Of a stretch of DNA of 28,457 bases, positions 1,628-27,010 are shown piece after piece. The translations under genes and the position numbers were made by a program. Every line of letters begins with the position of its first letter. Within the stretch, counting starts at the first letter, position 1. The notes under the pieces were generated by a model that was not told the origin of the DNA, did not search any database, and saw nothing but the letters and a program-made list of their open reading frames with translations. The stretch comes from a virus. The stretch spans positions 1 to 28,457 of IMG/VR virus record IMGVR_UViG_3300020055_002270. One strand, written 5' to 3'.

Positions 1628-1635
1628 CTCATCTC

Positions 1636-2295: not shown

Positions 2296-2296
2296 C

Positions 2297-3288: not shown

Positions 3289-3289
3289 C

Positions 3290-4573
3290 TTACTCTCCTA
3301 CCTTCTTCAATTTAGGTAATTTTAATTCAACTTTCTGTGGAACTGAATCCAATAATGGTTTAATAAGTTCACTTAACTTATCTCTCATCTTTTCGTAACT
3401 GAATTGTTTCTTACAAAATACTTCTAATTGTTTTGCTTTAATTAAATACTTTTCATAGTTTGTAAAAACATCAACCATACAATTTGAACCATCTTGGTAG
3501 TTCACAGTAAACCATTGTGCTCCCTCAAAATAAATATCACCAGGGAAAGCTTCTTTAGGTACTTTTGTTAAACTTCCGTTCAATAATGTGGAATAATTTG
3601 GATTTAAGAAATCTAAATGTCCACTCCAACCTGGTGCAATAATTGGTTTACCACTTTGAGTTGCCTCCAATAGTGGTCTACCAAATCCCTCACCATGTGT
3701 AAAAGTAATGTGAGCTTTTACTTTTGGATGATTATATAATTCATTCATTTGATTATCTGTAAAGTCTCCATGAACTAAATAAATTGGTGGAAGTTTTGTA
3801 CCCTTTACATCCTTTTTAATCATTCTAATCTTTTTAAGTATATCCTCTCTATCGATAACTGAGAATCCTGCTCCACTTGTTTTTAAAATTAATCCTGGTT
3901 GTTTTTCTTTATCTTTAAATGTTTCTAAAAATACTTTAATCAACATACCAGTATCTTTTCTATCTTGTCCTAATCCACCTTGTAACCAATGACCACAAAA
4001 TAAATAGTTCCAATCTGAATCTATTTCATCAAACACTTCATTAACTTCATCAGAAATTTTTGTAGTGGAAAAATAAACATCAGTATCTACACCCTCGAAT
4101 AAAACTTCCATCGGTTTATTAACTTTAAGTTCTCCAACTTTATTTCCTTGTTGGTCTTTCTGTTCAAAAACTGCCTCATTGAATCCGTGTCGTGAAAATT
4201 CAGAAGTTAAAATATTCATATCCATACGATTCATTCCCTCAACCCATTTTACTGGTGGGATTGTTGATTCAATACCAGCTGTCATACCAACATTCTTTTT
4301 ACCTATTGTTTGAAATTCATTTGGTACAACTAAATGTAAATGTAAATCTGGTTGTCTTTCTAATGAATTTGTTTTTAAAATCCTTTTTGATATTTCTTGA
4401 TGAACCTTGTTATCTTTTTCAAGAGCGTTTTTAGGTGTTACTCCCCAACGAACTGAATTAACTTTTACATCATAATCTAAATCAATTAAAGCTCTTACAA
4501 TATCTCTTGAGTGGTTTCCATATCCACTACGAGTTTCAACTGGTGCTGTTACTAATACTAATTGTTTACTCAT
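3290..4573 (-). CDS. Glycosyltransferase family 4 (GT-B)
   Basis: A GT-B fold glycosyltransferase of 427 residues. The N-terminal half begins with VLVTAPVETRSGYGNHSRDI, an acceptor-domain opening with the GxGxH-like loop. The C-terminal half has the GT4 signature HGEGFGRPLLEATQSGKPII with the E-x7-E pair at 295 and 303, which contacts the nucleotide sugar. It probably retains configuration and uses a UDP- or GDP-sugar in the cytoplasm. The extreme C-terminus is a charged tail, ELKLPKLKKV, that closely matches the N-terminus of the upstream GT4 gene. It follows that gene by 7 nt with a GAGGGAT ribosome binding site. The two GT4 enzymes may work as a pair; donor and acceptor are unknown. Confidence 0.87.
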   Translation of the reverse strand: MSKQLVLVTAPVETRSGYGNHSRDIVRALIDLDYDVKVNSVRWGVTPKNALEKDNKVHQEISKRILKTNSLERQPDLHLHLVVPNEFQTIGKKNVGMTAGIESTIPPVKWVEGMNRMDMNILTSEFSRHGFNEAVFEQKDQQGNKVGELKVNKPMEVLFEGVDTDVYFSTTKISDEVNEVFDEIDSDWNYLFCGHWLQGGLGQDRKDTGMLIKVFLETFKDKEKQPGLILKTSGAGFSVIDREDILKKIRMIKKDVKGTKLPPIYLVHGDFTDNQMNELYNHPKVKAHITFTHGEGFGRPLLEATQSGKPIIAPGWSGHLDFLNPNYSTLLNGSLTKVPKEAFPGDIYFEGAQWFTVNYQDGSNCMVDVFTNYEKYLIKAKQLEVFCKKQFSYEKMRDKLSELIKPLLDSVPQKVELKLPKLKKVGE

Positions 4574-4580
4574 TTATCCC

Positions 4581-6026
4581 TCACACTTTATAAACATTAA
4601 TCTTTTTTCTTGGTGTCCATTTTTCAAATGCTCTTTCCATATGTTGTATAAATAAACCACCCATACTACGAGCACTCATGTTTGAATCATCACTCTTTAC
4701 GAAATAGTGTCCTTTGATTCCACATCTTCTTCTTTCTTCTTTATCCATATCATACCACTCTTTTAATCTGTTAGATGCATCTACCCAATCACATCTATCA
4801 TCAAAAATATATGGTGTTGGAACTGAACCCATTAAAGCTCTTGAACGAGGCCAAACTGGTTTTGCCCAATCACCCCAAGTTAATTCTTCATTGTTTTCCC
4901 ACTTTCTCCAATCATGAAGTGATTTAATTTCTTTGTAATCATCGGATGTTAAGAACTTATCATTGAGTTTAAATCCACATTGGTCTTGTAAACCACCCGT
5001 AACATTTACGATGATTGGTGTTCCTGCCATCAATGATTCACAAGTTCCTAATCCAAATCCCTCATTACTTGCAAGATTCATAGTTACATCTGCAATATTA
5101 TACAAGAAGTTCATTTGTTTGTTATCAAGTTTTTGGTGTGAAAAAACTACATTAACCTCTGGCATTAAATGTTCAATCAATCTTGGTAAATCAGTTCCGT
5201 TATCATCAACTGGTTGAGTGTGCATTACATAAGTAACTCTATCTCTTTTATCTTCAGGTAATTGATTGACAAATTCTTTAAATGCCAATAACGAATCACC
5301 AACCATTTTTCTTCTGATATTTCTGTTCACATATAGTAAAACAAAATCATTTGGACGATTACCTAACAATTGATTTTTAAATTTTTTCATTTCCAATAAT
5401 TCTTCTTGTTCTGTTATTGGATAAAAACTATTTTCATTAATTCCATGTGGAACATATGTTGAATCCCAATCTGTTCTTGGTTTATTTTTACAAACTTCAT
5501 CTACAATTGCAACAGTCTGTTTAGAAATGTTCATAATTAAATCACAACTCTCATAATAATTTTCATTATATTGTGGAGCTGGCCAATCATCCCAAATATT
5601 GTAATAGAAAATTGGAATGTTCTGTCTGATTTCATGTTCCATGTTATACAACCACTGCCAGAATCTTGGGTCTGTATAGTGTAAGATTGCATCTGGTTTT
5701 TCTATTTCCATGATTTGTTTTAATAAATCAGGATTACCATAGCCACTTGTTGGATAAATTTTTAGATAAGCATCTGCAACACCTGTTTCTTTTCTCAAAT
5801 CATTACTTATATCAAAAGCTTGACCTTCTTCAGGATGTTTTATAGCTCCACCAATTTGTACCCAATCATATTTATCAATAGTGTTTAATACTATCTCTCT
5901 GGACATAGTTCCTACACCACTTGACATTCTCAAATCATCTGATAATAATAATATTTTCTTCTTCTCTCTATAAAGAGTTTTCTCTATATTTACCGATTTT
6001 AGTTTAGGTAGTTTTACTTCTGTCAT
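4581..6026 (-). CDS. Glycosyltransferase family 4 (GT-B)
   Basis: A second GT-B glycosyltransferase, 481 residues long. After a charged leader (MTEVKLPKLKSV) the acceptor domain starts with KILLLSDDLRMSSGVGTMSR, containing the glycine loop. The donor domain has LLYVNRNIRRK (basic phosphate contacts) and ASNEGFGLGTCESLMAGTPI with the E-x7-E pair at 322 and 330. It shares the overall plan with the following GT4 gene but is clearly diverged, with insertions near the C-terminus. The leader repeats the peptide found at the C-terminus of that downstream partner. It opens the sugar cassette after a 20-nt gap from the ribbon-helix-helix gene. Confidence 0.87.
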   Translation of the reverse strand: MTEVKLPKLKSVNIEKTLYREKKKILLLSDDLRMSSGVGTMSREIVLNTIDKYDWVQIGGAIKHPEEGQAFDISNDLRKETGVADAYLKIYPTSGYGNPDLLKQIMEIEKPDAILHYTDPRFWQWLYNMEHEIRQNIPIFYYNIWDDWPAPQYNENYYESCDLIMNISKQTVAIVDEVCKNKPRTDWDSTYVPHGINENSFYPITEQEELLEMKKFKNQLLGNRPNDFVLLYVNRNIRRKMVGDSLLAFKEFVNQLPEDKRDRVTYVMHTQPVDDNGTDLPRLIEHLMPEVNVVFSHQKLDNKQMNFLYNIADVTMNLASNEGFGLGTCESLMAGTPIIVNVTGGLQDQCGFKLNDKFLTSDDYKEIKSLHDWRKWENNEELTWGDWAKPVWPRSRALMGSVPTPYIFDDRCDWVDASNRLKEWYDMDKEERRRCGIKGHYFVKSDDSNMSARSMGGLFIQHMERAFEKWTPRKKINVYKV

Positions 6027-6046
6027 TTGTAACCCTTATTGTTTAA

Positions 6047-6244
6047 TTAAAATTTACTTCCACTTTGATGAAGATTTTGATGTTCTAAAATAGATTGCCT
6101 AAATTCTTCATCATAAACAAACTTATCAAGAGTTCTATTTACTAACTTTTGTAGAGAGAATTCATTATCTATCGTTTCATTTTTGAATTTCTTATATAAC
6201 TCAGTTATAACCTTAACCGAAGTTAGTTTTAATTGTTCACTCAT
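6047..6244 (-). CDS. Small ribbon-helix-helix-like protein
   Basis: A 65-residue protein with the look of an Arc/MetJ ribbon-helix-helix regulator: a short strand (LKLTSVKVI) followed by two helices (ELYKKFKNETIDN and SLQKLVNRTLDKFVYDEEFRQSI). Very similar small proteins, with the pattern LTSVKV...LQKLVNR...DEEFR, are widespread in phages and are thought to bind DNA as dimers. It could regulate neighbouring accessory genes, but no target is visible. It has its own leader of 46 nt containing an AT palindrome with TATTTATA and the ribosome binding site AAGGAAA. It lies upstream of the glycosyltransferase genes. Confidence 0.75.
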   Translation of the reverse strand: MSEQLKLTSVKVITELYKKFKNETIDNEFSLQKLVNRTLDKFVYDEEFRQSILEHQNLHQSGSKF

Positions 6245-6290
6245 AACTTATTTCCTTATAATATGTATATACTTATATATAAATATATAA
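6245..6290 (-). promoter_or_regulatory. AT-rich leader element with TATTTATA
   Basis: This 46-nt gap before the ribbon-helix-helix gene contains, on the plus strand, the 16-mer tatatataaatatata at 6274-6289. The same 16-mer occurs in the leader of the sliding-clamp gene at nearly the same distance from the start codon. In coding orientation it reads TATTTATA (6278-6285), followed by TATAAGTA, one mismatch from the T4 late-promoter octamer TATAAATA. I infer a phage promoter or regulatory site; direction and factor are uncertain. Confidence 0.45.
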
Positions 6291-6698
6291 CTAATCAATA
6301 ATAATATAGTTTTTTCCAACTTTTTTTGCATGTTTCAAAGCACTTAATGTACCCTTTGAAACCACACCATTGGAACAAAACGCTACTATTCTATCACTAT
6401 ATTCAATTAATTCTTTGTTTCTTTGATGAAAATACCACACTTGATATGGTTTCCCGTAGTTAAAACTTTCTTTAACACAATGTATATTATGTGGATAATG
6501 TTTCGGTGGAAACTCTGAATACTTTATATCAAAATCTAAAGAGAACTTTTTAGCGTATCCATCACTACCTTCTTTTTGTCCACCACTTACTATTTCTAAT
6601 TCATCTCCAAATTTTTCTTTTAACTTGAAAATAAAATCTTTTATTTTTCTTGAGTTAGTGTAACTCCTACTCCCTATAATTGCTACTCTCATCGTCAT
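6291..6698 (-). CDS. SLOG-superfamily protein (DUF2493/YspA-like)
   Basis: A 135-residue Rossmann-like protein of the YpsA/SLOG (DUF2493) family. Signatures in order: VAIIGSRSYTN (5-15), the SGGQKEGSDGYA nucleotide-binding loop (38-49), HQRNKELIEYSDRIVAF (91-107) and the C-terminal GTLSALKHAKK helix. SLOG proteins bind nucleotide-derived ligands; some are linked to nucleotide signalling or anti-phage systems, but the phage members have no established role. The gene overlaps the upstream unknown gene by 32 nt. Two in-frame ATGs (6698 and 6692) are both possible starts. Function beyond ligand binding is not inferable. Confidence 0.8.
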   Translation of the reverse strand: MTMRVAIIGSRSYTNSRKIKDFIFKLKEKFGDELEIVSGGQKEGSDGYAKKFSLDFDIKYSEFPPKHYPHNIHCVKESFNYGKPYQVWYFHQRNKELIEYSDRIVAFCSNGVVSKGTLSALKHAKKVGKNYIIID

Positions 6699-7119
6699 TT
6701 CTTTTTTGTTGTCTTTTTTTAGGTTTATCTTTATCTGATGTTACAAACTCGTATGTTTTTTTGAATTCTTCTAACCCATTAAGTATGTGTTCAGCTCCAC
6801 CACCATACACCCAACTATATCTTGAGTAGTGAATGTGATTAGCATTATAAATTCTTGTTGGAATAATATCATACCAAATAAAATCTCTTTGTAAATCAAA
6901 AAAATTATTTCTGATGATTGTTTTGAAATTGTTGTGTGGTAATCTATCCCACTTGACTAAAAAATCTTTTGGATTAACTTTATCGTTTTGATTATACCAC
7001 AAATATAATTTTAGATTTGGTGCGGAATTTCCATACTCTGTAAGTTTTTCTATAACTTCATCTTCTCTATCTGTATAGATAAAATCTGGCATATAAACTC
7101 TTAAAGTAGGTGTTATCAT
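6667..7119 (-). CDS. Hypothetical protein
   Basis: I do not recognise this 150-residue protein. It is rich in aromatic residues (LYLWYNQND, DFIWYDIIPTRIY, YSRYSWVYGGGAEH) and ends in a charged, probably disordered tail (KPKKRQQKRNDDESSN). There is no signal peptide or membrane segment. The conserved-looking core HIHYSRYSWVYGGG suggests a compact soluble fold. Its start overlaps the stop of the nuclease gene (ATGA), so it is probably translationally coupled to the Cas4/RecB-like nuclease and could be a partner of it, but that is only positional inference. Confidence 0.68.
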   Translation of the reverse strand: MITPTLRVYMPDFIYTDREDEVIEKLTEYGNSAPNLKLYLWYNQNDKVNPKDFLVKWDRLPHNNFKTIIRNNFFDLQRDFIWYDIIPTRIYNANHIHYSRYSWVYGGGAEHILNGLEEFKKTYEFVTSDKDKPKKRQQKRNDDESSNYRE

Positions 7120-7979
7120 ATCATTTTCCTATCACATAGTTCTGGTTTATTTCTAAACTCACAATACTTACAATTCTTATCTGAAACTTCTTTACGATAT
7201 TCTTTTATGATGTGTTCTCCATTATCATCAAAACAATCATCCATAAAGTTTTGTAATCTGTTTATAACTTTGTTAATACTTGGTTTACCGCTTGCTGGTA
7301 CAAAAGTTTGTATTCTCTTTTGTGGATAAGCTAAGTTTTCATATAACTTTCTCTTTAATATTAAATATTCAACTTCTATATTTTCAATAGCAACATCTCT
7401 TTCCTTTGAAAAGAATTGTTTGTACAATAATAATTGAGCTGTTTTATTCTTATCAGCCTTTTGATATTTGTTCCAACCATATGTTGCAGTTTTGATATCA
7501 ATGATTTTAACTTTACCAGTCTTTTTATTATGAATAACTACATCAATATAACCCCTAAACTCAATGTTTTTAGGTAGTTCATACCCAAGAGACATTTCAA
7601 TCCCTACTAATTCTGTATTCTTTTTTGGAAAGTATCCTGACTTTCTTTTCTTAAATTCTTCAATAATATTCAAACCATCTTGAAAAAACTCTTTCATTTC
7701 CTCTAATGTGATTTCTAATTCATCATTTTGTTCTCTAGCACTTTTGAAGTTTTCTTCCATTCTATATTTTAGAATTTCATTTAATGGTAGATTGTCAGCT
7801 TCTTTGATAGTTTTTTCGTAATAACAAACTAAATATGCTTGAATAGTTTCGTGAACACTCGTTCCAAAGACCGTATAAATATTATCAGTAAATGTTCCAA
7901 GTTTATCTACATAATTTAACTTCCACATATGTGGACACTTGTCCCATTGTGAAAATTGTGAATAACTAATTTTATTCAT
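7116..7979 (-). CDS. PD-(D/E)XK nuclease, Cas4/RecB-like with Fe-S cysteines
   Basis: A 287-residue nuclease of the RecB/Cas4-like PD-(D/E)XK family. Active-site residues in order: H43 in GTSVHETIQ, E127 in VGIEMS, D145 in GYIDVVI, D161-x-K163 in DIKTATYG, and the QLLLY motif near 182. Four cysteines frame the domain: C15 near the N-terminus and C270, C273 and C282 at the C-terminus (CKYCEFRNKPELC). This is the arrangement that holds a 4Fe-4S cluster in Cas4 and AddB. Such enzymes degrade or trim single-stranded DNA ends during recombination-dependent replication. There is no adjacent helicase or CRISPR array. It overlaps the dehydrogenase gene upstream by 8 nt and the unknown gene downstream by 4 nt. 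Confidence 0.85.
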   Translation of the reverse strand: MNKISYSQFSQWDKCPHMWKLNYVDKLGTFTDNIYTVFGTSVHETIQAYLVCYYEKTIKEADNLPLNEILKYRMEENFKSAREQNDELEITLEEMKEFFQDGLNIIEEFKKRKSGYFPKKNTELVGIEMSLGYELPKNIEFRGYIDVVIHNKKTGKVKIIDIKTATYGWNKYQKADKNKTAQLLLYKQFFSKERDVAIENIEVEYLILKRKLYENLAYPQKRIQTFVPASGKPSINKVINRLQNFMDDCFDDNGEHIIKEYRKEVSDKNCKYCEFRNKPELCDRKMI

Positions 7980-8817
7980 CTATAATAGCTCTTCCTTTCA
8001 TTTCTTCCCAATCACGATTATCACGAACTTGGTCATTAACATTTTCAACTGCCTCTAATAATCCATATGTTTCAAATTGATTGATAATCGCACTTAAATC
8101 TTTTGGTAAACAATGTCCACCATAACCATAATCACCATCAGGACCAGGTACTGCCCAATGTGATTTACCAAGTCTCTCATCATAAGTTGCATACTCTACA
8201 ACTTTATCATAATCAATATCAATCTGCTCACATATATTATTCATCTCATTTGCAAATGATACTTTAGTTGCCAAGAAATTATTAATAAAATACTTTGTCA
8301 TCTCTGCAGTTTTACTACCTGTCTTCACGATAGTTGCCTGTGGAAATACTTTAGAATAGATTTGTCTAAGTTTATTAGTTCCAACTCTATTACCACCTAA
8401 TATAATTCTTTTCTGATTCTTGAAATCTTCCAAGAAGTTTTCTTCTGTTAAGAACTCTGGATTGAATATCACAGTAACATTTGAATAGTTCTTATTCATA
8501 TAATCCGTAGTGCCTGGTGGAACCGTAGATTTAATTACTACAATAGGTTTTTCTGTTCTACCCGAATCATAAACATATCCATCAATATCTCTAATCACTT
8601 CTTCTACAATACCTGTAAAACAAGTTCCGTCTTTTCTCATTGGTGTAGGAACACAAACAAATATAACTTCACACTCTTCAACTAAATCTTTTAAATTTGG
8701 TAAAGTGGATTTACCTAAATCAAATTTATCATAAGTGTGTAAATCATAATGTGATTCAAATCCTACTTTAATAGCAGTACCAACATAACCCTGTCCAACT
8801 ATTCCTATTTTGCCCAT
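7972..8817 (-). CDS. Short nucleotide-sugar dehydrogenase (UDP-glucose 6-dehydrogenase family)
   Basis: Oxidises the C6 hydroxyl of a nucleotide sugar to a carboxylate with NAD. The NAD site is IGIVGQGYVG (4-13). Family residues follow: VCVPTP (54-59), STVPPGTT (97-104), NPEFLTEENF with the catalytic-region glutamate at 121, TKYFINN (174-180), and the thiohemiacetal-forming cysteine C236 in YGGHCLPKD. At 281 residues it stops about where the C-terminal UDP-binding domain of normal 400-450-residue enzymes would begin, so it is a short form, not a frameshift: the frame closes cleanly and overlaps the next start. Ribosome binding site GAGGGG. It probably supplies uronic acids to the glycosyltransferases farther along. 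Confidence 0.87.
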   Translation of the reverse strand: MGKIGIVGQGYVGTAIKVGFESHYDLHTYDKFDLGKSTLPNLKDLVEECEVIFVCVPTPMRKDGTCFTGIVEEVIRDIDGYVYDSGRTEKPIVVIKSTVPPGTTDYMNKNYSNVTVIFNPEFLTEENFLEDFKNQKRIILGGNRVGTNKLRQIYSKVFPQATIVKTGSKTAEMTKYFINNFLATKVSFANEMNNICEQIDIDYDKVVEYATYDERLGKSHWAVPGPDGDYGYGGHCLPKDLSAIINQFETYGLLEAVENVNDQVRDNRDWEEMKGRAIIDE

Positions 8818-10269: not shown

Positions 10270-10290
10270 AACCTTTTATATAAATAGGTT
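10270..10290 (-). promoter_or_regulatory. Hairpin over gp62 ribosome binding site, with TATTTATA
   Basis: In coding orientation the 24-nt gap holds AACCT (10290-10286) and AGGTT (10274-10270), a 5-bp stem enclosing an AT loop that itself can pair (TTT with AAA). The 3' arm contains the AGG of the ribosome binding site AAAAGG, 7 nt before the ATG. The loop includes TATTTATA (10286-10279). A translational hairpin or a promoter element are both possible. Confidence 0.35.
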
Positions 10291-10909
10291 ATTGTTTTTT
10301 GAAACCATCAATAAATCTATCAACCCACTCATTTTTTTTCAAATCAATCAACAATGTGATTCTATCAGTATCACCATCATTAAACATTGTATGATTCAAT
10401 CTTACATTAAATGTATGTATGTGTGCAGGTATCATTCTAAAGTTTTTAAATCGTGGTTTAAATCTTTTATTAAATGTATAAAGTGTGTAGGAATTTTCTT
10501 CTGTCCATTCCTCTTCTAATTCTTCATCTGTAATTGCAAACCAACAGTGGTTATTTGTTTTTATTGGTATTTGAAATCTAACTATATCATCACCCATATC
10601 TTTATCATTGTGGATACCATATGATGTTCCTGCCTTTCTTCTCATTAATCTGAATGATGTTACTTCTGTTTCAAAACTATTGTATATTTCTTGAAAGTAA
10701 GGTGTTTTACTTAGAATATCTGTACATGGTTCATTTTGATATGCAGTTTTGTAAATACCATTAAAATTATTCACACTTGGTAGTGATATACAATGTCCAA
10801 ATGCTCCATCTTCGTACTTACCATGAGTTTCTGCCGTAATCAAATCATTCTCTAACTTTATTAAATCATACTCTGGCCCTATCTTCCAACCTGTATCAAA
10901 ATTTCTCAT
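10289..10909 (-). CDS. Aspartyl/asparaginyl beta-hydroxylase-like 2OG-Fe(II) oxygenase
   Basis: A 206-residue double-stranded beta-helix oxygenase. The iron triad reads H100 and D102 in SYGIHNDKD and H173 in RLNHTMFNDG, with R183 in DTDRITLLID as the likely 2-oxoglutarate carboxylate contact. The RRKAGTSYGIHND and NVRLNHTMFN patterns are those of the aspartyl/asparaginyl beta-hydroxylase family. The substrate could be a protein side chain or a free amino acid. I place the start at the ATG at 10909, which follows a strong GAGGAG site; the longer in-frame start at 10954 lies inside the sulfotransferase gene. It differs in family from the five tandem oxygenases upstream. Confidence 0.82.
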   Translation of the reverse strand: MRNFDTGWKIGPEYDLIKLENDLITAETHGKYEDGAFGHCISLPSVNNFNGIYKTAYQNEPCTDILSKTPYFQEIYNSFETEVTSFRLMRRKAGTSYGIHNDKDMGDDIVRFQIPIKTNNHCWFAITDEELEEEWTEENSYTLYTFNKRFKPRFKNFRMIPAHIHTFNVRLNHTMFNDGDTDRITLLIDLKKNEWVDRFIDGFKKQ

Positions 10910-11558
10910 CTTCTCCTCTATTATCAAAATGACAAAAACCTTTATTCTCTTCATAAAAGTTTTTTAGTTCTTCCCAATTCTCTATGTTTTTATAGTTCTC
11001 TTTTGTATTTAATTTTACACCTGAAAAGAACCCAAATAAATCTTCATAAAATAATATTCTTGAACTATTATGATTTTTTAAATAATCAATAACCTTGATT
11101 GATGTTTCTTTAATACCTTGTATATCCTTTTTTATATCTTCAACCTCAATCTTTTCAATTTTTAACTTGTTGTATTCATCTTTTTCTTTTTGTGAAAATG
11201 TTTCAACTCCAAAATCTATTGGTCTCCACTTATCCGTTCTTTTTGCTAAATTTAATGAAATTGCCTGTTCAAATACATTTCTTCTTGATAAGAAAAAAAC
11301 AATATCATGATAATCTATCAAATCTAAATGTATTTTTTTCTGTGGATAAACACCATATTTTATTCCAAGAGTATTTTTATCTTTGTAAATTCTATCTAAA
11401 AATTCTGTAATACCTAAATTACTAACTAATTTATAGATATTATCATCAAATCCAAACTCCCATACAAATTTCTTTGATGAAACTTCTTGTAGTGTTTTAC
11501 AAAATTCTGTTGTACCACTACGACTACAACCTAATACTAATACTTTATTTAAATGCAT
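10896..11558 (-). CDS. Sulfotransferase-like P-loop protein
   Basis: A 220-residue protein with the PAPS-binding 5'-phosphosulfate loop at the N-terminus (VLVLGCSRSGTTEF, 7-19) and a plausible 3'-phosphate-binding strand and helix (DIVFFLSRRNVFEQAISLNLA, about 85-105, with the RR-N and Ser). It would transfer sulfate from PAPS to a hydroxyl or amine of a glycan, lipid or protein. The C-terminus is charged and less typical. It overlaps the last tandem oxygenase by 14 nt and the aspartyl-hydroxylase-like gene by 14 nt, so it is embedded in the oxygenase operon. Hydroxyls added by the oxygenases could be its acceptors; that is inference. Confidence 0.8.
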   Translation of the reverse strand: MHLNKVLVLGCSRSGTTEFCKTLQEVSSKKFVWEFGFDDNIYKLVSNLGITEFLDRIYKDKNTLGIKYGVYPQKKIHLDLIDYHDIVFFLSRRNVFEQAISLNLAKRTDKWRPIDFGVETFSQKEKDEYNKLKIEKIEVEDIKKDIQGIKETSIKVIDYLKNHNSSRILFYEDLFGFFSGVKLNTKENYKNIENWEELKNFYEENKGFCHFDNRGEDEKF

Positions 11559-12114
11559 TTCCTAACATCCAAGTTATTAATGAGTAACGAGTTCCATTAG
11601 TGATTGGTGTTACTCTATGTGATAAAAACGCGGGAAATATTGTGATACTCCCTCTCTCTCTTGTTGCGGTATAATTTTTTTCACCTGAATCTTCTGTGAT
11701 TCCAAATTCTAAATTTCCACCCTCATATGTTGTTTCATCTGATAACTGAACTATGGCAGTTAGTTTTCTCTTAGAAGTTTTTTTAGAACCACAATCAGTA
11801 TGCCATTCATATTTACCACCAACACCATACTTTAAAAGTTTTACATCTTCCATTTTTTGTATATCGAAGTTCCAAATGGATAAGTTTGATAATTCAAAAA
11901 CCATTTTTAGTTTATTGTTTAAGGTATCATCTTTGAATATAACTTCTTTATTATTACGAACTTTTTTATTTAAAATATTTTCATCATACTTTCCTGCAAG
12001 TTCTGAATCATTTGGATTCACTTCATCCAAATATTTTATTAAGTTATCACATTGTGAATCAGATAAAAAATTCTCTTTATGTACTACAAATTTAAAATTA
12101 TCATTTTGTATCAT
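11545..12114 (-). CDS. 2OG-Fe(II) oxygenase (tandem paralogue 5)
   Basis: One of five tandem paralogues of the prolyl-4-hydroxylase/PKHD type. In this 189-residue protein the triad is complete: H105 and D107 in YEWHTDCG, H166 in FLSHRVTP, with R176 in NGTRYSL for 2-oxoglutarate. The shared opening (NFLSDSQCDNLI) and closing (LGNAFK) peptides link it to its neighbours. The start at the ATG at 12114 overlaps the upstream TGA (ATGA) and has a GGAG site; the longer frame to 12147 lies in the upstream gene. The likely substrate is a protein or peptide side chain, but small molecules are not excluded. Confidence 0.86.
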   Translation of the reverse strand: MIQNDNFKFVVHKENFLSDSQCDNLIKYLDEVNPNDSELAGKYDENILNKKVRNNKEVIFKDDTLNNKLKMVFELSNLSIWNFDIQKMEDVKLLKYGVGGKYEWHTDCGSKKTSKRKLTAIVQLSDETTYEGGNLEFGITEDSGEKNYTATRERGSITIFPAFLSHRVTPITNGTRYSLITWMLGNAFK

Positions 12115-12704
12115 ACGAATGTATCTCCTACTGCCCAACAAACACAAGAATATCTCTCACCCTTTGTAACTGGTTTTACCTCGTGTCCTGCAAATGATGG
12201 ATGTATAATTAATTTTCCAACTTCAGGTTCTACTATTGTTCCATCAAACAATCTAAACTCTCCACCCTCATAATCTCGATGGTCATTTAAAAATACAATA
12301 CAAGTTAGTTTTACTGAACTAAACTTTTGTATTGAGTGGAAATCCGAATGTGGATTATACCAATCACCTACATCATATCTATGTGCCTGTAATCTATTTT
12401 CAAATATTCCACTTAAATTATATTTGAATGTTGTTATGTTTGCAATTTGTATTGCACTCCAAAACTTATCAAGATACTTTTGTTCATCCGTTCTACTGAT
12501 ATTTAACATACAAACATTGTCATCCATTACTGTCCTATCTTCTAAGTTTTGAACATAATGCCCTTTCTTTCTTGATGAATTTTTATCTATATGTTTTATC
12601 ATATATTCACAATCATCTTTTGAAAAGAAATTAGGTTTGGTAATAAACCATCTAAAATCTTGGTTTATCTTCAACTCTTCCATGTTTATATTTTTATATC
12701 TCAT
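12111..12704 (-). CDS. 2OG-Fe(II) oxygenase (tandem paralogue 4)
   Basis: A 197-residue member of the tandem oxygenase family, with complete triad H119 and D121 in YNPHSDFH, H174 in FAGHEVKP, and R184 in GERYSC. The strand EGGEFRLFDGTIVEP and the PSFAGHEV loop are standard for this fold. The ATG overlaps the stop of the upstream paralogue by 4 nt (ATGA). It is diverged from its neighbours (about the same length, low identity outside the core motifs), so the duplications are old or the copies evolve under different substrate demands. Confidence 0.86.
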   Translation of the reverse strand: MRYKNINMEELKINQDFRWFITKPNFFSKDDCEYMIKHIDKNSSRKKGHYVQNLEDRTVMDDNVCMLNISRTDEQKYLDKFWSAIQIANITTFKYNLSGIFENRLQAHRYDVGDWYNPHSDFHSIQKFSSVKLTCIVFLNDHRDYEGGEFRLFDGTIVEPEVGKLIIHPSFAGHEVKPVTKGERYSCVCWAVGDTFV

Positions 12705-13228
12705 TTAAAAGTATTTCCTTCTATGAAAGTTATTAAACTATATCTATCATGTTTACTAAATTGTAAAACTTTATGTGCTGCAAACGATGGAAATATAACT
12801 AATCTACCTTTTTTTGCTTCAATCGTTTGATTCCAAATCTGTAATCCACCACCTTCAAAATCATCATTTAAAAATATTACACAAGATAATTTAGTACAAC
12901 TATTAACAACCTTTCCATCTCCTGCTGCAAAATCCGAATGAAGAACATCATCTTCAACAAATGATTCTACTGGATATAACTTACCACACGAGTGTTGTAT
13001 TTTTGATATATCAAAATTATAAACTAATGTATTAGATATCTTTATTACTTTCCATATCTTATCTAATAACTTTTCATTTTCTATCTCAACATTTTTACAA
13101 TCTTTACCCCAAACAAAATTATCTTTGTTTACATTACTATCTATAAACTTAATTTCATCATCACACTCTTGAGATGATAAAAAGTTATCTCGAACTAAAA
13201 ACCACTCAAAATTTTCATTAGATATCAC
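12701..13228 (-). CDS. 2OG-Fe(II) oxygenase (tandem paralogue 3)
   Basis: A 175-residue oxygenase, the shortest of the five. The triad is H97 and D99 in VLHSDFAAG, H152 in FAAHKVLQ, with R162 in HDRYSL. It lacks part of the variable N-terminal region present in the other copies but keeps the opening NFEWFLVRDNFLSSQECD and the end GNTFK. It starts with GTG overlapping the upstream TGA (GTGA). The first shell is complete, so I expect activity. Confidence 0.85.
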   Translation of the reverse strand: MISNENFEWFLVRDNFLSSQECDDEIKFIDSNVNKDNFVWGKDCKNVEIENEKLLDKIWKVIKISNTLVYNFDISKIQHSCGKLYPVESFVEDDVLHSDFAAGDGKVVNSCTKLSCVIFLNDDFEGGGLQIWNQTIEAKKGRLVIFPSFAAHKVLQFSKHDRYSLITFIEGNTFK

Positions 13229-13827
13229 CTGAAATGGTCTCCTATGTATGTTTCTCTCATAATATATCGTTCTCCACTTATTAGTTCAGAAACCATATGG
13301 TTTGCAAAAGATGGAAACATAAATAAATATCCTTTTTTGTATGGACACTTAAAAAATTCTTCTTTGTCATTTTGAAATGCAAAATGTAAATCACCACCCT
13401 CAAAATCTTTGGGGTCTGATAATTGTATCAAACAAGTTATTTTATTTAAAGATAAAAATCCTTTGTCTGTACCAGAATGCCATTTGAATTGGTTACCAAT
13501 GTTATATTTTAAAACTCTAAAATCACCTGAAGCTTTTTCTATATTGAAATTCCATACTTTATTATTAGTTAATCTAACAATAGTATCTAATTTCTTTAAA
13601 ACCCAATCATAATTATTCTTTATATCTTTATTTTTTTCTTCATTCAAATAGAGTTCATCTAACTCTCTGTACTTTGAAAATGAAACTTCATTGTTTTTGT
13701 TTGGATTTATAACATCTGCTCTAACCCAACCACCTTCATTTTTTATTTGAGTTAGTAATTCATCACATTGAGCTTCACTTAAAAATGGTAAGTGAATGTA
13801 CCATTCAAAATTTTTATTTTCAATCAC
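13225..13827 (-). CDS. 2OG-Fe(II) oxygenase paralogue with HxG in place of HxD
   Basis: A 200-residue tandem paralogue in which the first iron motif reads WHSGTD: H117 is present but the residue aligned with the usual aspartate is G119, without an alignment gap relative to the next copy (WHTDFN). An aspartate is found two positions later (D121). The second histidine H177 (FANHMVSE) and R187 (GERYIM) are kept. Known HxG or HxA enzymes of this fold are Fe/2OG halogenases such as WelO5, BesD and SyrB2, where the free site takes chloride. Loss of activity or use of D121 are alternatives. It starts with GTG in a GTGA overlap and shares the C-terminal GDHFR with the upstream paralogue. Confidence 0.84.
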   Translation of the reverse strand: MIENKNFEWYIHLPFLSEAQCDELLTQIKNEGGWVRADVINPNKNNEVSFSKYRELDELYLNEEKNKDIKNNYDWVLKKLDTIVRLTNNKVWNFNIEKASGDFRVLKYNIGNQFKWHSGTDKGFLSLNKITCLIQLSDPKDFEGGDLHFAFQNDKEEFFKCPYKKGYLFMFPSFANHMVSELISGERYIMRETYIGDHFR

Positions 13828-14453
13828 CTAAAATGGTCTCCTACAAATAATTCTTGAATTACATATCGTTTACCTTTAGTAACTGGTGTTACATTATGTG
13901 ATAAAAATGTTGGAAAGATTGTTAGTGAACCTTTTTTCTTCTCCATAGTGTACCATTCTTTTGTATCTTTATCTTGGATACCAAATTGAACTTCACCACC
14001 CTCATATTCACTCGGGTCTGTTAATTGAATTATTCCTACTAACTTTCTTACTGAACAATAACCTGCATTAAAATCTGTGTGCCAACCATAGAATCCACCA
14101 TCTTGGTATTCTATTAGTTTTAATTCATCATGATAACCTCTGATATCAAATTTGAAAATATCTTTATTTACCATTTGAATAATCGTGTACATTTTCTCTT
14201 GTATCCAACCCCAATCGTTGGCAGTTTTATCGGGTCTCATATCATTTAGTGGTTGGTCTGTTAAGTACCACTCTTTTGTTTGTCTGATTTCTGGTATGAT
14301 TACACTACCCTTTTCATCACCAACACAACCTACAACCTGTTCTTCTGTCTCTGTAACTTGTTTAATTATTTCATCACACTTTTCAGATGAAAAGAAATTT
14401 GGTATTTGAATTGAATACTTGAAATTATTATTATGTTTATATTTTCCCATCAT
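13824..14453 (-). CDS. 2OG-Fe(II) oxygenase (tandem paralogue 1)
   Basis: First of the tandem oxygenases in transcription order, 209 residues. The triad is H125 and D127 in YGWHTDFNAG, H186 in FLSHNVTP, and R196 in GKRYVI. The core EYEGGEVQFGIQD and KKGSLTIFPTFLSH are typical. The ATG at 14453 follows AAAAAGG by 6 nt; an in-frame TTG at 14459 is less likely. It comes 21 nt after the Hint-domain gene, so it is probably co-transcribed with it. Its tail GDHFR is identical to that of the next copy, suggesting these two are the closest pair. Confidence 0.87.
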   Translation of the reverse strand: MMGKYKHNNNFKYSIQIPNFFSSEKCDEIIKQVTETEEQVVGCVGDEKGSVIIPEIRQTKEWYLTDQPLNDMRPDKTANDWGWIQEKMYTIIQMVNKDIFKFDIRGYHDELKLIEYQDGGFYGWHTDFNAGYCSVRKLVGIIQLTDPSEYEGGEVQFGIQDKDTKEWYTMEKKKGSLTIFPTFLSHNVTPVTKGKRYVIQELFVGDHFR

Positions 14454-14474
14454 TAACAACCTTTTTAGTTTTTG

Positions 14475-16736
14475 TTAAGGTGAATTGTGAGTTACAATAT
14501 CATGAGCAATAATAGTTCCATAATCTTGTTCTAACAAGTTATATGTTGTATATTCTCCCTCAATTCTATTGATTTCTACAATTTCTACCCAACCATCTAA
14601 ATCTCTAACATAATCACCAACTTTTATAATACCACCACCATCTTGTAAAAATGTTGGATTGTTCTCACCAATTGTAGACCAACCCTTATCTCTTAATAAA
14701 AATGGATGGTTATCAGTTGCCTTAATTGTTTGTCCACTTTCAACTTTGATTCCATAACAATTATCATGTAGTTTCTTTCTTATAACATTTACTTTACCTT
14801 CTTTAAACTCATCATTTTCTTCATCATATTGTAAAATACTTTCTCCTAATTGTATCTCATCAATTCTTTTATAAACACCATCTCCCATGTTGATAACTTG
14901 GTCTTCCATTAAACAGAATTTATTATGAACTAATACATCATTTGCAAAATAATTATGATTTGTTGTTATTTCTAATGAATAAGTTTGAACTGGATTTATA
15001 TCTTCCGTAATATCTGTAATTTCTCTTTCCACTAATTTACCATCACGAAGTTCTAAACACTTATCACCAACCTCTAATTGATTTGATTCTATATCATATC
15101 GTTTTTTAGTCCACTCTGGTTTATATGAACTCCAACCTTTTCCAACAACCCAATAAGGATGGTCAAATGTATTTTTAGTGGTTTTACTATTAAAACTTAT
15201 TTCTATGATATCAGCGTGAACTGGCATATCAATCGTGGTAACTTTACCTGTCTGAATTTCTTCATCTTTGAAATTATAATTCATAACTTCATCACCAATT
15301 TCAATTCTTTCAATAGCCTTTGTAGTTCCATCACCCATAGTGATTGGTGTTCCTGCTACAAAACACTTTGGTGGAATATTGTGAACTAAAATATTTGATT
15401 GGAAATAAGTATCAATATCTTCAACATCAAGTGAGAACCAAAGTACATCACCATTATTTTGAGTTACTGATGTAACTTCTGTTTCATCACCATTTGGGTC
15501 TAAAAAGTAATCTCCAACTTCAATACTATCTGTTGTTGCCCATGACCAAGTTCCACCTTGTTTTACAAAATATCTAATATCACTACTATCCTGTTGTAAA
15601 TTATAAGGTGCTTTAATACTATCATTAATTAAATAATATCCGTAATTTTCTGTTTTCATTGTTTTAGTAACAATTGAACCTTGAGTAGTAGAACCTGATA
15701 AATCTGTTGTGGTATAGGATAAATAATCTTGTGATTCATCTGGCATTCCATATGGTTGATAACTTAAAACAACATCTCCAACTTCTACATCTTGAACTTG
15801 TTTTGTTGAACCATCATACATTTTAATTAAACTACCACTTGCAGATGTTTTTGCTCTTTGTGCTATATAATCCCAACTATCTGTTGTTGTCGGATTTAGT
15901 TTAATATATTTACCAGCATCTCTATCTGCAAACACAATAATCTTTTCTGGTGTCATCATAAAATCTATTTTACCTACACCCAAGTAAGATTCTCCATCTC
16001 GGTAACTTCCACTATGAACAACATATTGTTCAATCAAATCATTATTATCTACCGCATCTTGATAACTTGAACTTGTTGAATTGTATGTGTAAAATCCAAC
16101 TGCATTAGTTTGAATACTTGAATCTACAGTTGCACCTTTAACTACATAATCTGGGAAATTATTATTCGGTGTATAAGATGATGTGTTAAATGTTGGTATC
16201 AAAGAAGAACTAAATGGTGAGTTATTAAGTACATCTTTAAAATTATCTTTATCAAAAGAACTACTAACAATATCTAACAAATTATCATCTGAATACCAAG
16301 GCGTTTGAAAAAATAAATGAAAACTACCTGAGTGTTGTGCTTGACCTCTTTGTGAAAAATAAGTGTGTGTTGAATTATTGTTATATTCAAAATTTGTTGA
16401 TATTCCATGTCTTGCAAAACTTGAACTAATTAATCCTTGTTGTAAGTATGATGGATTTTGTTTTTTACCTGAAAACCCATTGATGTAACAAGTCGTGTAT
16501 CCTTGTTCATTTGCATAATCTGATATTACATCAAAGTAACTACCGGTCTGTATTGCTGAACTACCAACTATTCCTATGTTTGTATTAAATTCTACAAACT
16601 TTACTTCGTTGGAACCACTTTCTATAATGTAATCCATACCACCAAGAATTGCAGCATTGGATAATGATGGCCAACCACCTACACTTCCTGTGATGTAATT
16701 AATAAATTCTTTTGTTCTTGTTATTTGTGTCGACAT
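14475..16736 (-). CDS. Protein with three tandem Hint (intein-like) domains
   Basis: A 753-residue protein. Residues 1-295 are a Ser/Asn/Tyr-rich region I cannot assign (it contains FVEFNTNIGI). Three Hint modules follow: about 300-453, 458-605 and 608-751. Modules 2 and 3 start with cysteine (CFVAGTPITMGDG and CLMEDQVINMGDG), have the block-B histidine (FDHPYW, H526; DNHPFL, H677) and end in His-Asn (LVHN, VTHN). Module 1 starts with serine or glycine, lacks the block-B histidine but also ends in VHN (N453). Only module 3 is followed by a Ser (+1), and only Ser-Pro remain after it, so normal splicing giving two exteins is unlikely; self-cleavage, as in bacterial intein-like proteins, is more plausible. 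It heads the oxygenase operon and may be a virion or surface protein. Confidence 0.83.
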   Translation of the reverse strand: MSTQITRTKEFINYITGSVGGWPSLSNAAILGGMDYIIESGSNEVKFVEFNTNIGIVGSSAIQTGSYFDVISDYANEQGYTTCYINGFSGKKQNPSYLQQGLISSSFARHGISTNFEYNNNSTHTYFSQRGQAQHSGSFHLFFQTPWYSDDNLLDIVSSSFDKDNFKDVLNNSPFSSSLIPTFNTSSYTPNNNFPDYVVKGATVDSSIQTNAVGFYTYNSTSSSYQDAVDNNDLIEQYVVHSGSYRDGESYLGVGKIDFMMTPEKIIVFADRDAGKYIKLNPTTTDSWDYIAQRAKTSASGSLIKMYDGSTKQVQDVEVGDVVLSYQPYGMPDESQDYLSYTTTDLSGSTTQGSIVTKTMKTENYGYYLINDSIKAPYNLQQDSSDIRYFVKQGGTWSWATTDSIEVGDYFLDPNGDETEVTSVTQNNGDVLWFSLDVEDIDTYFQSNILVHNIPPKCFVAGTPITMGDGTTKAIERIEIGDEVMNYNFKDEEIQTGKVTTIDMPVHADIIEISFNSKTTKNTFDHPYWVVGKGWSSYKPEWTKKRYDIESNQLEVGDKCLELRDGKLVEREITDITEDINPVQTYSLEITTNHNYFANDVLVHNKFCLMEDQVINMGDGVYKRIDEIQLGESILQYDEENDEFKEGKVNVIRKKLHDNCYGIKVESGQTIKATDNHPFLLRDKGWSTIGENNPTFLQDGGGIIKVGDYVRDLDGWVEIVEINRIEGEYTTYNLLEQDYGTIIAHDIVTHNSP

Positions 16737-16777: not shown

Positions 16778-17251
16778 TCAAATATCATCAATTTCTGTAA
16801 AAATATTTTCTTTCATCACACTATGAGCTGGTGTATTCCAATGAGCCATGTGTATTGTGGCAGTATCTAATCCTCGTTTTTTAACTTCATTACACCTTAA
16901 CCATACTAAATCACTACCCAATCCTTTATTTCTAAAATCAGGTGTTACATAACGATTATTTAAATGTGGATACTCTCTATTCCAATCAATAAATGCCCAA
17001 CCCTCAATGACTGGAAGTGGTAATCCATCTCTACCATTACCGATTAAATAAAATGTGAAATTATTTTCTAATCTATGTTTTAAATCAGATATATCCCACT
17101 CTTTCCAAGGCTTTCCAAATGAATCTTGGAAGTTATCTAATTCCTTTTCAATGGCTTCTAATTGATATGGACTGAAATTATACTTATCATATTCTAAATA
17201 AATACGAGTTTCTCGTGGTGTGTAATTACTTAAATCTATTTTGTAATACAC
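16778..17251 (-). CDS. GNAT-family acetyltransferase
   Basis: A 157-residue GCN5-related N-acetyltransferase. The acetyl-CoA pyrophosphate loop is visible as YVTPDFRNKGLGSDLVWLRCNEVKKRGL (motif A; R-x-x-G-x-G at 107-112). It is preceded by the beta-4 strand region GWAFIDWNRE and followed by HMAHWNTPAHSVMKENIF, the usual motif-B segment with the Asn. Substrate unknown: amino groups of sugars, proteins or small molecules are all common. It overlaps the zinc-ribbon gene by one base and ends next to the Hint-gene leader. Confidence 0.85.
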   Translation of the reverse strand: MYYKIDLSNYTPRETRIYLEYDKYNFSPYQLEAIEKELDNFQDSFGKPWKEWDISDLKHRLENNFTFYLIGNGRDGLPLPVIEGWAFIDWNREYPHLNNRYVTPDFRNKGLGSDLVWLRCNEVKKRGLDTATIHMAHWNTPAHSVMKENIFTEIDDI

Positions 17252-24197: not shown

Positions 24198-26933
24198 TTA
24201 GAAGTTAATAGTAACTCCAATGTTCGCATATCTTGGTGTTCCCAAGAATACTTCTGCGTTATGTGGTAAGTGTTGTTTACTACCCCATCCATTGTATTGA
24301 CTATTATCAACAGCATCTTGTACAAATACTTCATCAAGTGCGTTAAATACATGACCTGTTAAGGAAATGTCATAATCCTTGATTGGAAGTTTGTATGATG
24401 CGTGTAAATCAAGTTTTGAGTAGCCAGGAGCTTCCCAAACTTGTGCCCTATCGGCATCGTCACCTGTTCCGTCGTATTCACGAGCTGATGGCGACCAATC
24501 TGAATAGTTCTTATCATATGTTTTGTATAATGCCTGTAATCTTAGACCTTTTAATGGTTTTAATGTTAAACCAAAGATATAAGATGTTTGTGGCATATCA
24601 CCAACATACAATCCGTCAAGAGCATATTGATATTCAGTAGTGGTTAATCCGATTACTTGACCTTCTGAGTTATACTCGTTTTCTTGGTAAGTACCCTCAG
24701 CATCTCCATCGAATTTCCAATTACCGAATGAAGCGATGAAATCAAGTTCAACCATATCATTTGGTTTCACTTTGGTTTCCACTTCAAGACCTTGGTGCTT
24801 TTGATTTACACCTCTTAGGAAGATAATATCAGTATCACCTGATGAACCTTGACCTGTTGTTACAGATTTTGTAAGGTTTCTATCTTGCCAATCAGTATCG
24901 TAAGCACTTACTCTAACTCCAAGTTTTTGTGTACCGAAGTTTGCACCAATCTCATTATGTAGGAACTTTTCGTTCGCTGGGTCTGATGCTACGGTTCCAT
25001 CAAAGTAGATAACATTATCTAAGATAGGAGCTTTTTCAACTAAACCTGAATTAACAAATAATCCAAGATTATCACTCACATTAAATAATGCACCACCTTT
25101 AACTTGGTAAGTAGTGATTGGGTCTGCTGTAATCACTTCATCTTCAACTGTAAAATGGTCTTGATAAGAATACTCAATAGATGAGATTCCACCCATACCA
25201 TATAGATTTAGTTTTTCTGTAGTGTAATTACCTTGTACAAATCCACCAATCCAATCTACGGTTGTTTCATTGAAGTATGCAATTTCATCACCTAAACGAA
25301 CTACTTTACCTTCAGGTGCATTTTTATCTGCATAATCAACATAGTAATCACCACCCAATAAATCACGAACTTCACGAGCGTGTTCTATACGAGCAGTTCT
25401 CCAATCAATACCTGTTTGTAATTCTAAATTATCACTAACTACATAGTTTAATTTTGAAATCAAACCATAGGTATTTTGTCTGTTGATAGAATTTCTAAGA
25501 ATTCCTTTTGAACGATTTTCTGTTGTTGAGAAGTTTTCATCGATGTTGTTAGAATTAGTTGCAATTGCTGCATTCCAATCCCAAGTCCACGGTGAAGATG
25601 CGTACCATCTTTCTCCATCAACTGCAGGTTTTCTGAAAGAAGAACCATAAGTTCCTGTTCCACCACCAGAACCACCACTCCAATAAAAAACAGAACTCAA
25701 ACGAGCTTTGTCATTTAATGTTAAGAAGTGATTTAAATTCACTAATGGTTTGTGGAAATAGTTTTCTCTTTCGTTCAAGAAATTACTATTGAATCTATTT
25801 GTTGTTCTCGCTCCATACATATACCAATATTGTTTTCCTGTATATGATGGGTCAATTGGTGCGACATTTTGATTGAACAATCTACCAGCTTCAGTAGAGA
25901 ATTTGTTACCCTCTGCAAATGCATCAGTATCATATCCATCAATACTACCAGCTAACTCTTGTGAGTATGTGGCAATATTCTGTTTGTATAGATTTTGTCC
26001 ATGTCGTTGTGGAGCACCGATTGCATACAACTCGAACCTTTGTTTATCACTTACGGCATATGAACCACCGAAGTAGTATGCCCAAGCATCAGTCCAAGTT
26101 CCATCGATAATTCCATCACCAGTTTTACGAACAATAGTTCCACTCAAAGCTAACTTGTCATTTAATAATAGACCAGTATTGTAGTTTACAGTAGTTTTAA
26201 GAAAACCACCATCACCAGCTTCTTGTTTGAACTTCCCACCTTTTTCAAAAGATGTAGGGTCGGTAATGATATTCATAGTTCCACCAATAGAAGGTGTTGC
26301 CAAATTAACAGCTGATAGACCTCTCTGAACCTGAATTGAAGATGTAGCATCACCTACTCCATCCCAATTAGACCAGTAAACCCATCCGTTCTCCATATCA
26401 TTTTGGGGAACACCATTAATCATCACTGCAACATTTCTTTGATTAAAACCACGAATGTTGATACGAGCATCACCCGCACCACCACCTTGTTGAGTAGCAT
26501 ATACTGATGGTGTTGTGTTAAGAATCATTGGAATATCTTGAGAACCTAATCTCAATTCCATTTCTTCTTTATCAACATTAGTATAAGCCACAGGTGTTGT
26601 TTCAGATGCACGAGATGCTAACACCTCAACATCTGATAAGGAAACTACATCAAAATCCAATACGAAGTTTAATGTAGTGATACCCTCAACAACTATTGAT
26701 TTAGTTATTGAAGAGTAACCAATGAAAGAAGCTGTTACATCATAAGTTCCATTAGAAACATCAATAGAAAAAGCACCAGTATTATCTGATACTCCACCTA
26801 AATCTGTTCCAAGAACTACAATATTAGCTCCTTCAAGCGGTTTATTGTCGACATCAGTAATTGTACCATTAATAGATTGTGCGAACAATCCACCAATCAT
26901 CAATACTGATGCGATTAGATTACGATATGTCAT
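24198..26933 (-). CDS. TonB-dependent outer-membrane receptor
   Basis: A complete 911-residue TonB-dependent receptor, which in bacteria imports siderophores, cobalamin, sugars or peptides across the outer membrane. Order of parts: signal peptide (1-19, MTYRNLIASVLMIGGLFAQ); carboxypeptidase-regulatory-like beta domain (about 20-95, GTITDVDNKPLEGANIVVLGT); a possible TonB box near DVEVLAS (101-107); plug domain (about 110-230, with RINIRGFNQRNVAVMINGVPQ and the closing IGGTMNIITDP); then a beta barrel ending in INF, the C-terminal Phe used by the Bam machinery. The N-terminal domain is typical of the Bacteroidota/Marinimicrobia group. Start at the ATG at 26933 after AAGGAG with a 6-nt gap. 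No frameshift is seen. Ligand unknown. It is a very unusual phage gene, with GC about 32-42% in lines counted. Confidence 0.95.
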   Translation of the reverse strand: MTYRNLIASVLMIGGLFAQSINGTITDVDNKPLEGANIVVLGTDLGGVSDNTGAFSIDVSNGTYDVTASFIGYSSITKSIVVEGITTLNFVLDFDVVSLSDVEVLASRASETTPVAYTNVDKEEMELRLGSQDIPMILNTTPSVYATQQGGGAGDARINIRGFNQRNVAVMINGVPQNDMENGWVYWSNWDGVGDATSSIQVQRGLSAVNLATPSIGGTMNIITDPTSFEKGGKFKQEAGDGGFLKTTVNYNTGLLLNDKLALSGTIVRKTGDGIIDGTWTDAWAYYFGGSYAVSDKQRFELYAIGAPQRHGQNLYKQNIATYSQELAGSIDGYDTDAFAEGNKFSTEAGRLFNQNVAPIDPSYTGKQYWYMYGARTTNRFNSNFLNERENYFHKPLVNLNHFLTLNDKARLSSVFYWSGGSGGGTGTYGSSFRKPAVDGERWYASSPWTWDWNAAIATNSNNIDENFSTTENRSKGILRNSINRQNTYGLISKLNYVVSDNLELQTGIDWRTARIEHAREVRDLLGGDYYVDYADKNAPEGKVVRLGDEIAYFNETTVDWIGGFVQGNYTTEKLNLYGMGGISSIEYSYQDHFTVEDEVITADPITTYQVKGGALFNVSDNLGLFVNSGLVEKAPILDNVIYFDGTVASDPANEKFLHNEIGANFGTQKLGVRVSAYDTDWQDRNLTKSVTTGQGSSGDTDIIFLRGVNQKHQGLEVETKVKPNDMVELDFIASFGNWKFDGDAEGTYQENEYNSEGQVIGLTTTEYQYALDGLYVGDMPQTSYIFGLTLKPLKGLRLQALYKTYDKNYSDWSPSAREYDGTGDDADRAQVWEAPGYSKLDLHASYKLPIKDYDISLTGHVFNALDEVFVQDAVDNSQYNGWGSKQHLPHNAEVFLGTPRYANIGVTINF

Positions 26934-27010
26934 AATCATCTCCTTGTTGTTTACTTGTGAATGACACATTTTTATACTGGTGTGTCGTCTGCCAGTGGTA
27001 TGTGAATCTT
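26934..27010 (-). promoter_or_regulatory. Leader of the receptor gene with possible H-type pseudoknot
   Basis: This 77-nt gap can fold, in coding orientation, as an H-type pseudoknot: stem 1 ACTGG (26996-26992) with CCAGT (26980-26976); stem 2 GACACA (26986-26981) with TGTGTC (26968-26963); loop 1 CAGAC; A-rich loop 3 ATAAAAA. TATAAAAA (26976-26969) is also one mismatch from the T4 late octamer. The ribosome binding site AAGGAG (26945-26940) is outside the fold. A regulatory RNA or a promoter is possible. Confidence 0.35.

Follow-up and report, generated by a model that had tools for sequence, protein, structure and literature searches.

The stretch of DNA analysed here (the window), 28,457 bases long, is a viral fragment from a T4-like phage, which carries genes for DNA polymerase, clamp loader, sliding clamp and ribonucleotide reductase; the best cultured-phage match of its DNA polymerase is Microcystis phage Mel-JY01 (44%). 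On the minus strand, positions 14475–16736 form an uninterrupted ORF encoding a 753-aa marine phage protein, in which, according to the ORF and an AF2 model, an ATP-grasp-like domain is followed by three Hint modules. A 2OG-Fe(II) oxygenase gene lies directly downstream (13824–14459, minus strand) and a GNAT acetyltransferase gene upstream (16778–17251, minus strand). This setting recurs among relatives, where a 2OG-Fe(II) oxygenase gene of a prolyl-hydroxylase-like Pfam family is found on the 3′ side in all 112 assessable loci and a GNAT gene on the 5′ side in 64 of 87, with a radical-SAM protein among the neighbours in some loci.

Several other minus-strand features of the window deserve mention. 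Five 2OG-Fe(II) oxygenase genes of family PF13640 stand in a row at 11545–14459, and near them are genes for a sulfotransferase-like protein (10896–11558, a weak match) and an Asp/Asn-hydroxylase-like protein (10289–10954). A 923-aa TonB-dependent-receptor-like protein (24198–26969; CarbopepD_reg_2, 1.6e-15; Plug, 1e-14) is encoded between the gene for the phage's DNA polymerase and that for its ribonucleotide reductase, which is unexpected for a T4-like phage. Finally, positions 25–8817 hold what appears, by eye, to be a sugar or surface-polysaccharide gene set, including cytidylyltransferase-like, SIS-domain, glycosyltransferase-like and UDP-glucose-dehydrogenase-like proteins.

The N-terminal domain (residues 1–296; 15849–16736, minus strand) was placed by fold search, as Pfam and PDB profile searches and hhalign comparisons with Gss, YgiC and YjfC returned nothing convincing. 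Modelled alone (pLDDT 86, pTM 0.86), it retrieved circularly permuted ATP-grasp ligases in all of the top 26 rows (Z 8.7–12.3), collinear from residue 1, followed by a 27th row from the same superfamily (Z 6.9) and then by rows at or below 5.5. The matches comprise yeast, plant and human glutathione synthetase, trypanothione synthetase, Gss, YjfC and YgiC, the last of which is annotated in E. coli as a peptide-spermidine ligase. All 69 N-domain sequences have D35, E49, N51, K163 and E236, and 68 of them have K200. In a comparison based on motif and order rather than on residue-level structural alignment, D35/E49/N51/K163/K200 show spacing comparable to that of D318, E330, N332, K498 and K533 of E. 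coli Gss, which we take to be its Mg and ATP ligands, and the contexts are alike (GRMDF...YEYN and GGMDY...VEFN; GNK and DK; YAVKP and YVVKG, for the N-domain and Gss, respectively). By this motif comparison, the N-domain thus contains the Mg-ligand D, the E-x-N and the two ATP-binding Lys types in GspS-like order and spacing. It shares the permuted fold and these residues with E. coli YgiC/YjfC, Gss and eukaryotic glutathione synthetase; however, those proteins have 370–480 residues, whereas the N-domain has about 300, is shorter than YgiC and is only about 10% identical. As modelled, it is an ATP-grasp ligase fold of the glutathione synthetase/GspS/YgiC type and a predicted amide ligase. The 295-residue N-terminal part, earlier taken as the cargo of a processing device, is therefore not anonymous, and we know of no circularly permuted ATP-grasp ligase fused to Hint modules.

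The remainder of the protein consists of Hint modules with short linkers. Module alpha (residues 297–453; 15378–15848, minus strand, as are all coordinates in this paragraph) carries Thr at the Cys1 position and lacks the block-B His, while keeping His452-Asn453. The linker IPPK (454–457; 15366–15377) leads to module beta (458–605; 14922–15365), with Cys458, block-B His526, His604-Asn605 and Lys606 at +1. Lys606 and Phe607 form the second linker (14916–14921), which is followed by module gamma (608–751; 14484–14915), with Cys608, block-B His677, His750-Asn751 and Ser752 at +1, and by the Ser752-Pro753 tail and stop (14475–14483). The earlier note, made from the letters of this DNA, had listed three consecutive modules, their Cys1, block-B His and His-Asn residues, the short linkers and the Ser-Pro tail, and had a first module without nucleophile and block-B His that retained its Asn; all of this holds. 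Its position, 14475–15411, needs correction, as it spans residues 442–753 only, which takes in beta and gamma but no more than the C-terminal 12 residues of alpha. The modules occupy 14478–15848 of a gene at 14475–16736, and alpha starts near residue 297, not 300.

Pfam found PT-HINT in three stretches of the protein, along with Intein_splicing (9.7e-15) and Hint (1.9e-10). In the AF2 model, computed from an alignment of 64 relatives (pLDDT 79), the confidence minima fall exactly at the linkers (454–458 and 606–611). The closest solved structure to beta (456–607) is Tetrahymena BIL2 (Z 23.8, 1.4 Å over 144 residues, 32% identity); beta also superposes on BIL4 of C. thermocellum (Z 19.3), on mini-inteins and on 1at0 (Z 17.9), and gamma (609–753) matches the DnaB mini-intein (Z 19.2). 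Structure prediction, which the earlier note had proposed as a check, thus gave both modules the horseshoe Hint fold that defines the superfamily. Alpha is a Hint module as judged from profiles: it aligns with beta in hhalign (98.6%, E 1e-15), and 10 of 10 members match Intein_splicing/PT-HINT weakly but consistently in Pfam. We found no sterol-recognition region in the Hint modules, all of which, in the window, differ from Hedgehog-type autoprocessing domains in keeping His-Asn.

Two familiar Hint contexts were considered and rejected: a pretoxin or polymorphic-toxin PT-HINT, since the complete relatives tabulated have only 2–7 residues beyond their last module, and a selfish intein with a homing endonuclease, for which modules of ~137–158 aa leave no room. 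As a separate observation, part of beta (15030–15365, minus strand) matches the AXH domain of ataxin-1/HBP1 better than it matches most Hint families (Pfam AXH, 3.6e-19 with beta alone; phmmer against ataxin-1 AXH, 2.6e-8), with GxGWSSxxPExT...L.VGDxCxxL in common. This similarity, for which we found no paper in the literature searched, suggests that the AXH domain arose from a Hint domain, namely from its first two thirds.

To place the window protein among its relatives, we used IMG/VR scans with the full-length, alpha–delta and N-domain alignments, which found 195, 236 and 159 relatives, respectively; at most 80 of each were retained, and the three sets overlap. Relatives occur on more than 150 IMG/VR contigs. 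The N-domain set was chosen by the head alone and is hence unbiased towards Hint modules. All 79 of its ORFs with a 3′ end (from the at most 80 retained of 159) nevertheless carry Hint modules, so that an N-domain without Hint was not seen among them: 11 have one module, 21 two, 31 three and 16 four, and the first is always alpha, ending in His-Asn-Ile/Leu-Pro. The architectures are alpha; alpha-delta; alpha-beta-delta; alpha-beta-gamma, as in the window; and alpha-beta-gamma-delta, delta being a type that is always terminal and absent from the window. Cultured phages yielded neither N-domain relatives nor a ligase–Hint fusion, and the scanned bacterial genomes gave one match, a Shewanella protein with a C-terminal Hint domain, which is not the fusion. 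In this Shewanella hanedai protein (L114:5416-6465), the Hint domain ends in His-Asn followed by Lys-Asp-Ile-Pro and the stop, again with Lys at +1. A 326-aa ORF upstream of the gene in L031–L037 was considered as a second copy of the head and dismissed, as it has no match to the head and looks alcohol-dehydrogenase-like by eye.

The N-domain+alpha tree shows at least 15 changes of architecture (16 were computed, one of them due to the cut contig L211). Alleles also recombine, as exemplified by L015 and L016, which have the head in common and differ in gamma. In L067 (1740–1830) and L069 (1560–1650), a delta remnant (NYFANKVLVS) persists after the gamma stop, a visible deletion; the remnant may have been retained for the start of the following gene, which it contains.

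A module tree that omits the last two residues resolves clades for alpha (0.997), gamma (0.997) and delta (0.986), with beta forming one main clade and two outliers. Each type has its own set of catalytic residues. In the relatives examined, alpha always has His-Asn but neither Cys1 nor a conserved block-B His, the sole counted exception being the unrelated Shewanella protein. Beta has Cys1, block-B His and His-Asn, with Lys at +1 in 44 of 44 distinct modules; although the type is named by this Lys, a tree that leaves the residue out still yields the main clade. The 26 distinct gamma modules all have Cys1, TxNH, His-Asn and Ser/Thr at +1. Delta shows the reverse of the loss seen in alpha, keeping Cys1 and TxxH and ending in Ser-Asp-Glu instead of His-Asn, while in L058, L062 and L063 the last module still ends in His-Asn, followed by Glu. 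The division of labour proposed in the earlier note, and the retention of the key residues by homologues of beta and gamma, are thereby borne out. The invariant Ser-Asp-Glu of delta is weak evidence of function: at the DNA level, the oxygenase start codon (gATGag) of L016, L109 and L116 apparently lies inside the last delta codons, so translation is probably coupled and the module's end constrained by the overlap.

All Hint modules appear, from their sequences, to be under purifying selection, with median dN/dS of 0.13–0.29 against 0.37 for the N-domain, values that are rough because the median dS is about 1. In beta, 24 of 149 columns are invariant, and these include all five expected residues (Cys1, block-B His, His-Asn and Lys+1); Cys1, His and His-Asn are invariant in gamma, and Cys1 and His in delta, whereas most columns vary. 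The +1 residue tracks module type, being always Ser/Thr in the gamma clade and always Lys in the main beta clade, and it stays fixed in linkers that otherwise vary in length and sequence, which speaks for selection acting on the C-terminal reactions of these two modules. For alpha, the same cannot be said, since its His-Asn sits within an almost wholly invariant stretch and its conservation is no proof of chemistry; moreover, Ile/Leu-Pro after His-Asn is not expected to favour Asn cyclisation. That alpha is degenerate yet always kept would fit modules that are now chemically inert and serve as a folded beta-rich tail for binding or assembly, as would the C-terminal Hint modules in tail proteins of large phages (Erwinia phage Y3, phage NCTB). 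The invariance of the catalytic residues and +1 in beta and gamma, in contrast to most other columns, makes this rather unlikely.

Alleles that encode alpha only are informative about the product. They make up 11 of the 79 ORFs and involve at least five changes between alpha-only and longer forms on the N-domain+alpha tree (six computed, one being the cut contig L211). Their proteins stop 4–5 residues past His-Asn, about where the next Cys1 would be, and their tails (IPPK*, IPKR*, IPKM*, IPQK*, LPPK* and IPGKE*, where the asterisk is the stop) are homologous to the linkers IPPK|C, IPPGK|C and LPPK|C of longer forms, the window's own IPPK among them. Thus, judging by sequence, some alleles directly encode the same C-terminus that N-cleavage by beta or delta would produce. 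Loss of modules is likely for L174, L175 and L179, which are nested in an alpha-delta clade. Because alleles recombine, exchange rather than new origins may account for the recurrence of alpha-only tails. An alternative route is module gain by fusion at an old stop codon, in which case tail and linker would match without any cleavage.

Our preferred reading of the observed architecture, fold matches, residue conservation, module gain and loss, and synteny is that the modules with Cys1 excise themselves from ligase-alpha-IPPK, whose C-terminus would then be free, spliced or conjugated, and we give it a probability of about one half. The chemical steps, which are read from residues, the mature product and the ligase substrate are all inferred. 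A phage amide ligase (residues 1–296) would bear a C-terminal self-processing cassette, whose first module, alpha, would remain on the enzyme, as it should be incapable of the N-S acyl shift and keeps the Asn-cyclisation end alone. In beta, Cys458, aided by His526, would attack the Lys457-Cys458 bond, producing a thioester at ...LVHN-IPPK; cyclisation at His604/Asn605 would open the Asn605-Lys606 bond, and the thioester would be hydrolysed or captured by an amine, for example that of Lys606. Gamma would repeat these steps through Cys608, His677 and His750-Asn751, and could use Ser752 for splicing. Maturation would yield ligase-alpha-IPPK, either bare or bearing a short KF/SP scar, and its C-terminus would be about the one that the alpha-only alleles encode directly. 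The delta of other relatives would perform only the first, Hedgehog-like half. Self-processing is likewise how the earlier note had read the device; its suggestion of lipidation found no support.

The same note held that ordinary intein splicing was impossible, a claim that is not established: gamma has Cys1, TxxH, His-Asn and an invariant Ser/Thr at +1, the class-1 intein set, and a two-residue C-extein does not forbid splicing chemistry. Beta and gamma could accordingly be viewed as domesticated inteins excised in turn, leaving IPPK-KF-SP behind alpha, a picture that suits the DnaB mini-intein as the match of gamma and the ~30% identity of beta to inteins of Vibrio phage DNA helicases. We nevertheless consider it unlikely, given that beta departs from the class-1 set by its Lys at +1 (alpha does so at Cys1 and block-B His), that a homing endonuclease is absent, that the site is the end of the protein rather than a conserved active site, and that, with two residues of C-extein in the window, splicing would bring little gain over cleavage. 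Alleles with and without gamma both exist.

Beta has the residues that define BIL domains (Cys1, block-B His and His-Asn without a +1 nucleophile), and such domains mostly cleave because they lack that nucleophile (PMC7664689). BIL2, its nearest structure, has been characterised as a dispenser and reported to form an isopeptide bond with Lys, joining its N-terminal neighbour to that residue (PMC8616854). Beta, and in relatives delta, might therefore act in conjugation, passing the ligase-alpha-IPPK thioester to a lysine or amine of another molecule, so that the enzyme becomes covalently attached. The invariant Lys+1 of beta within a variable linker and the retention by delta of the N-S shift half only would agree with such a role; on the other hand, no acceptor was identified, and alpha-only alleles, which would be incapable of forming a thioester, are common. 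We regard conjugation as unlikely. A more specific relay, in which beta or delta makes the C-terminal thioester and the enzyme is conjugated via IPPK to a specific amine on a component of the host or the virion, possibly once the adjacent 2OG oxygenases have carried out a prolyl hydroxylation, seems quite improbable; if true, it would amount to phage ubiquitin-like tagging without E1/E2/E3, in which the tag itself is an ATP-grasp ligase.

The linkers themselves could be the product, with IPPK and KF cut free by the His-Asn C-cleaver before them and the Cys1 N-cleaver after them and then modified by neighbouring enzymes. Every junction has the order His-Asn, linker, Cys1, which is also that of artificial split-intein constructs for peptide cyclisation; the linker of alpha is well conserved, and the neighbours include 2OG oxygenases, GNAT and in some loci the radical-SAM protein. 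However, neither length nor sequence is constant in the linkers that follow beta and gamma, the Ile/Leu at +1 is no splicing nucleophile, and each module is a complete Hint domain rather than a split half, all of which makes a peptide factory very hard to credit.

Tandem BIL domains are already known from ciliates, where BUBL genes encode two in one polypeptide (PMC9200820). Beta shares fold, Cys1 and block-B His with BIL2 of the Tetrahymena thermophila BUBL protein (6y75/6tmm); however, BUBL BIL domains lie between ubiquitin-like domains, whereas the phage modules adjoin one another via short linkers (mostly 1–10 residues), stand behind a ligase and have complementary active-site losses. BIL4 of Clostridium thermocellum (2lwy) is, like beta, a Hint domain with a His-Asn end and no Cys/Ser/Thr at +1, but it is a single module with other neighbours. 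Gamma shares Cys1, TxxH, His-Asn and Ser/Thr+1 with class-1 mini-inteins (Ssp DnaB, Mtu RecA and the Vibrio phage helicase inteins), although it sits at a protein end with a two-residue tail and not in a conserved enzyme core. The Hedgehog autoprocessing domain (1at0) is likewise a C-terminal Hint domain, and the delta of relatives, which alone lost His-Asn, keeps only the residues of the N-S shift; unlike Hedgehog, the phage protein has no signalling domain. Hint-bearing tail proteins of large phages are known as well: the C-terminal Hint domains of Erwinia phage Y3, Yersinia phage fHe-Yen9-02 and phage NCTB match alpha at 24–31% identity, but they lie in tail gene neighbourhoods, with a single module match and no ATP-grasp domain match. 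In the literature searched, which included few subscription journals, we found no description of an ATP-grasp–Hint fusion or of an allelic series of one to four Hint modules with complementary losses. The phage ligase and its row of Hint modules, with their fixed hydroxylase-type neighbours, suggest a previously undescribed enzyme that matures itself.

Hint modules are commonly found alone; in this case, a natural allelic series places one, two, three or four on the same enzyme, with the two halves of the splicing reaction lost from different modules. Three questions thereby become directly testable: what use there is for a Hint module that retains its Asn end or its Cys end alone, why Lys is fixed at +1, and whether a ligase can be matured or attached by Hint autoprocessing. 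In turn, the constant 2OG-Fe(II) oxygenase partner provides a lead on the role of the common, unexplained oxygenases of marine phages.
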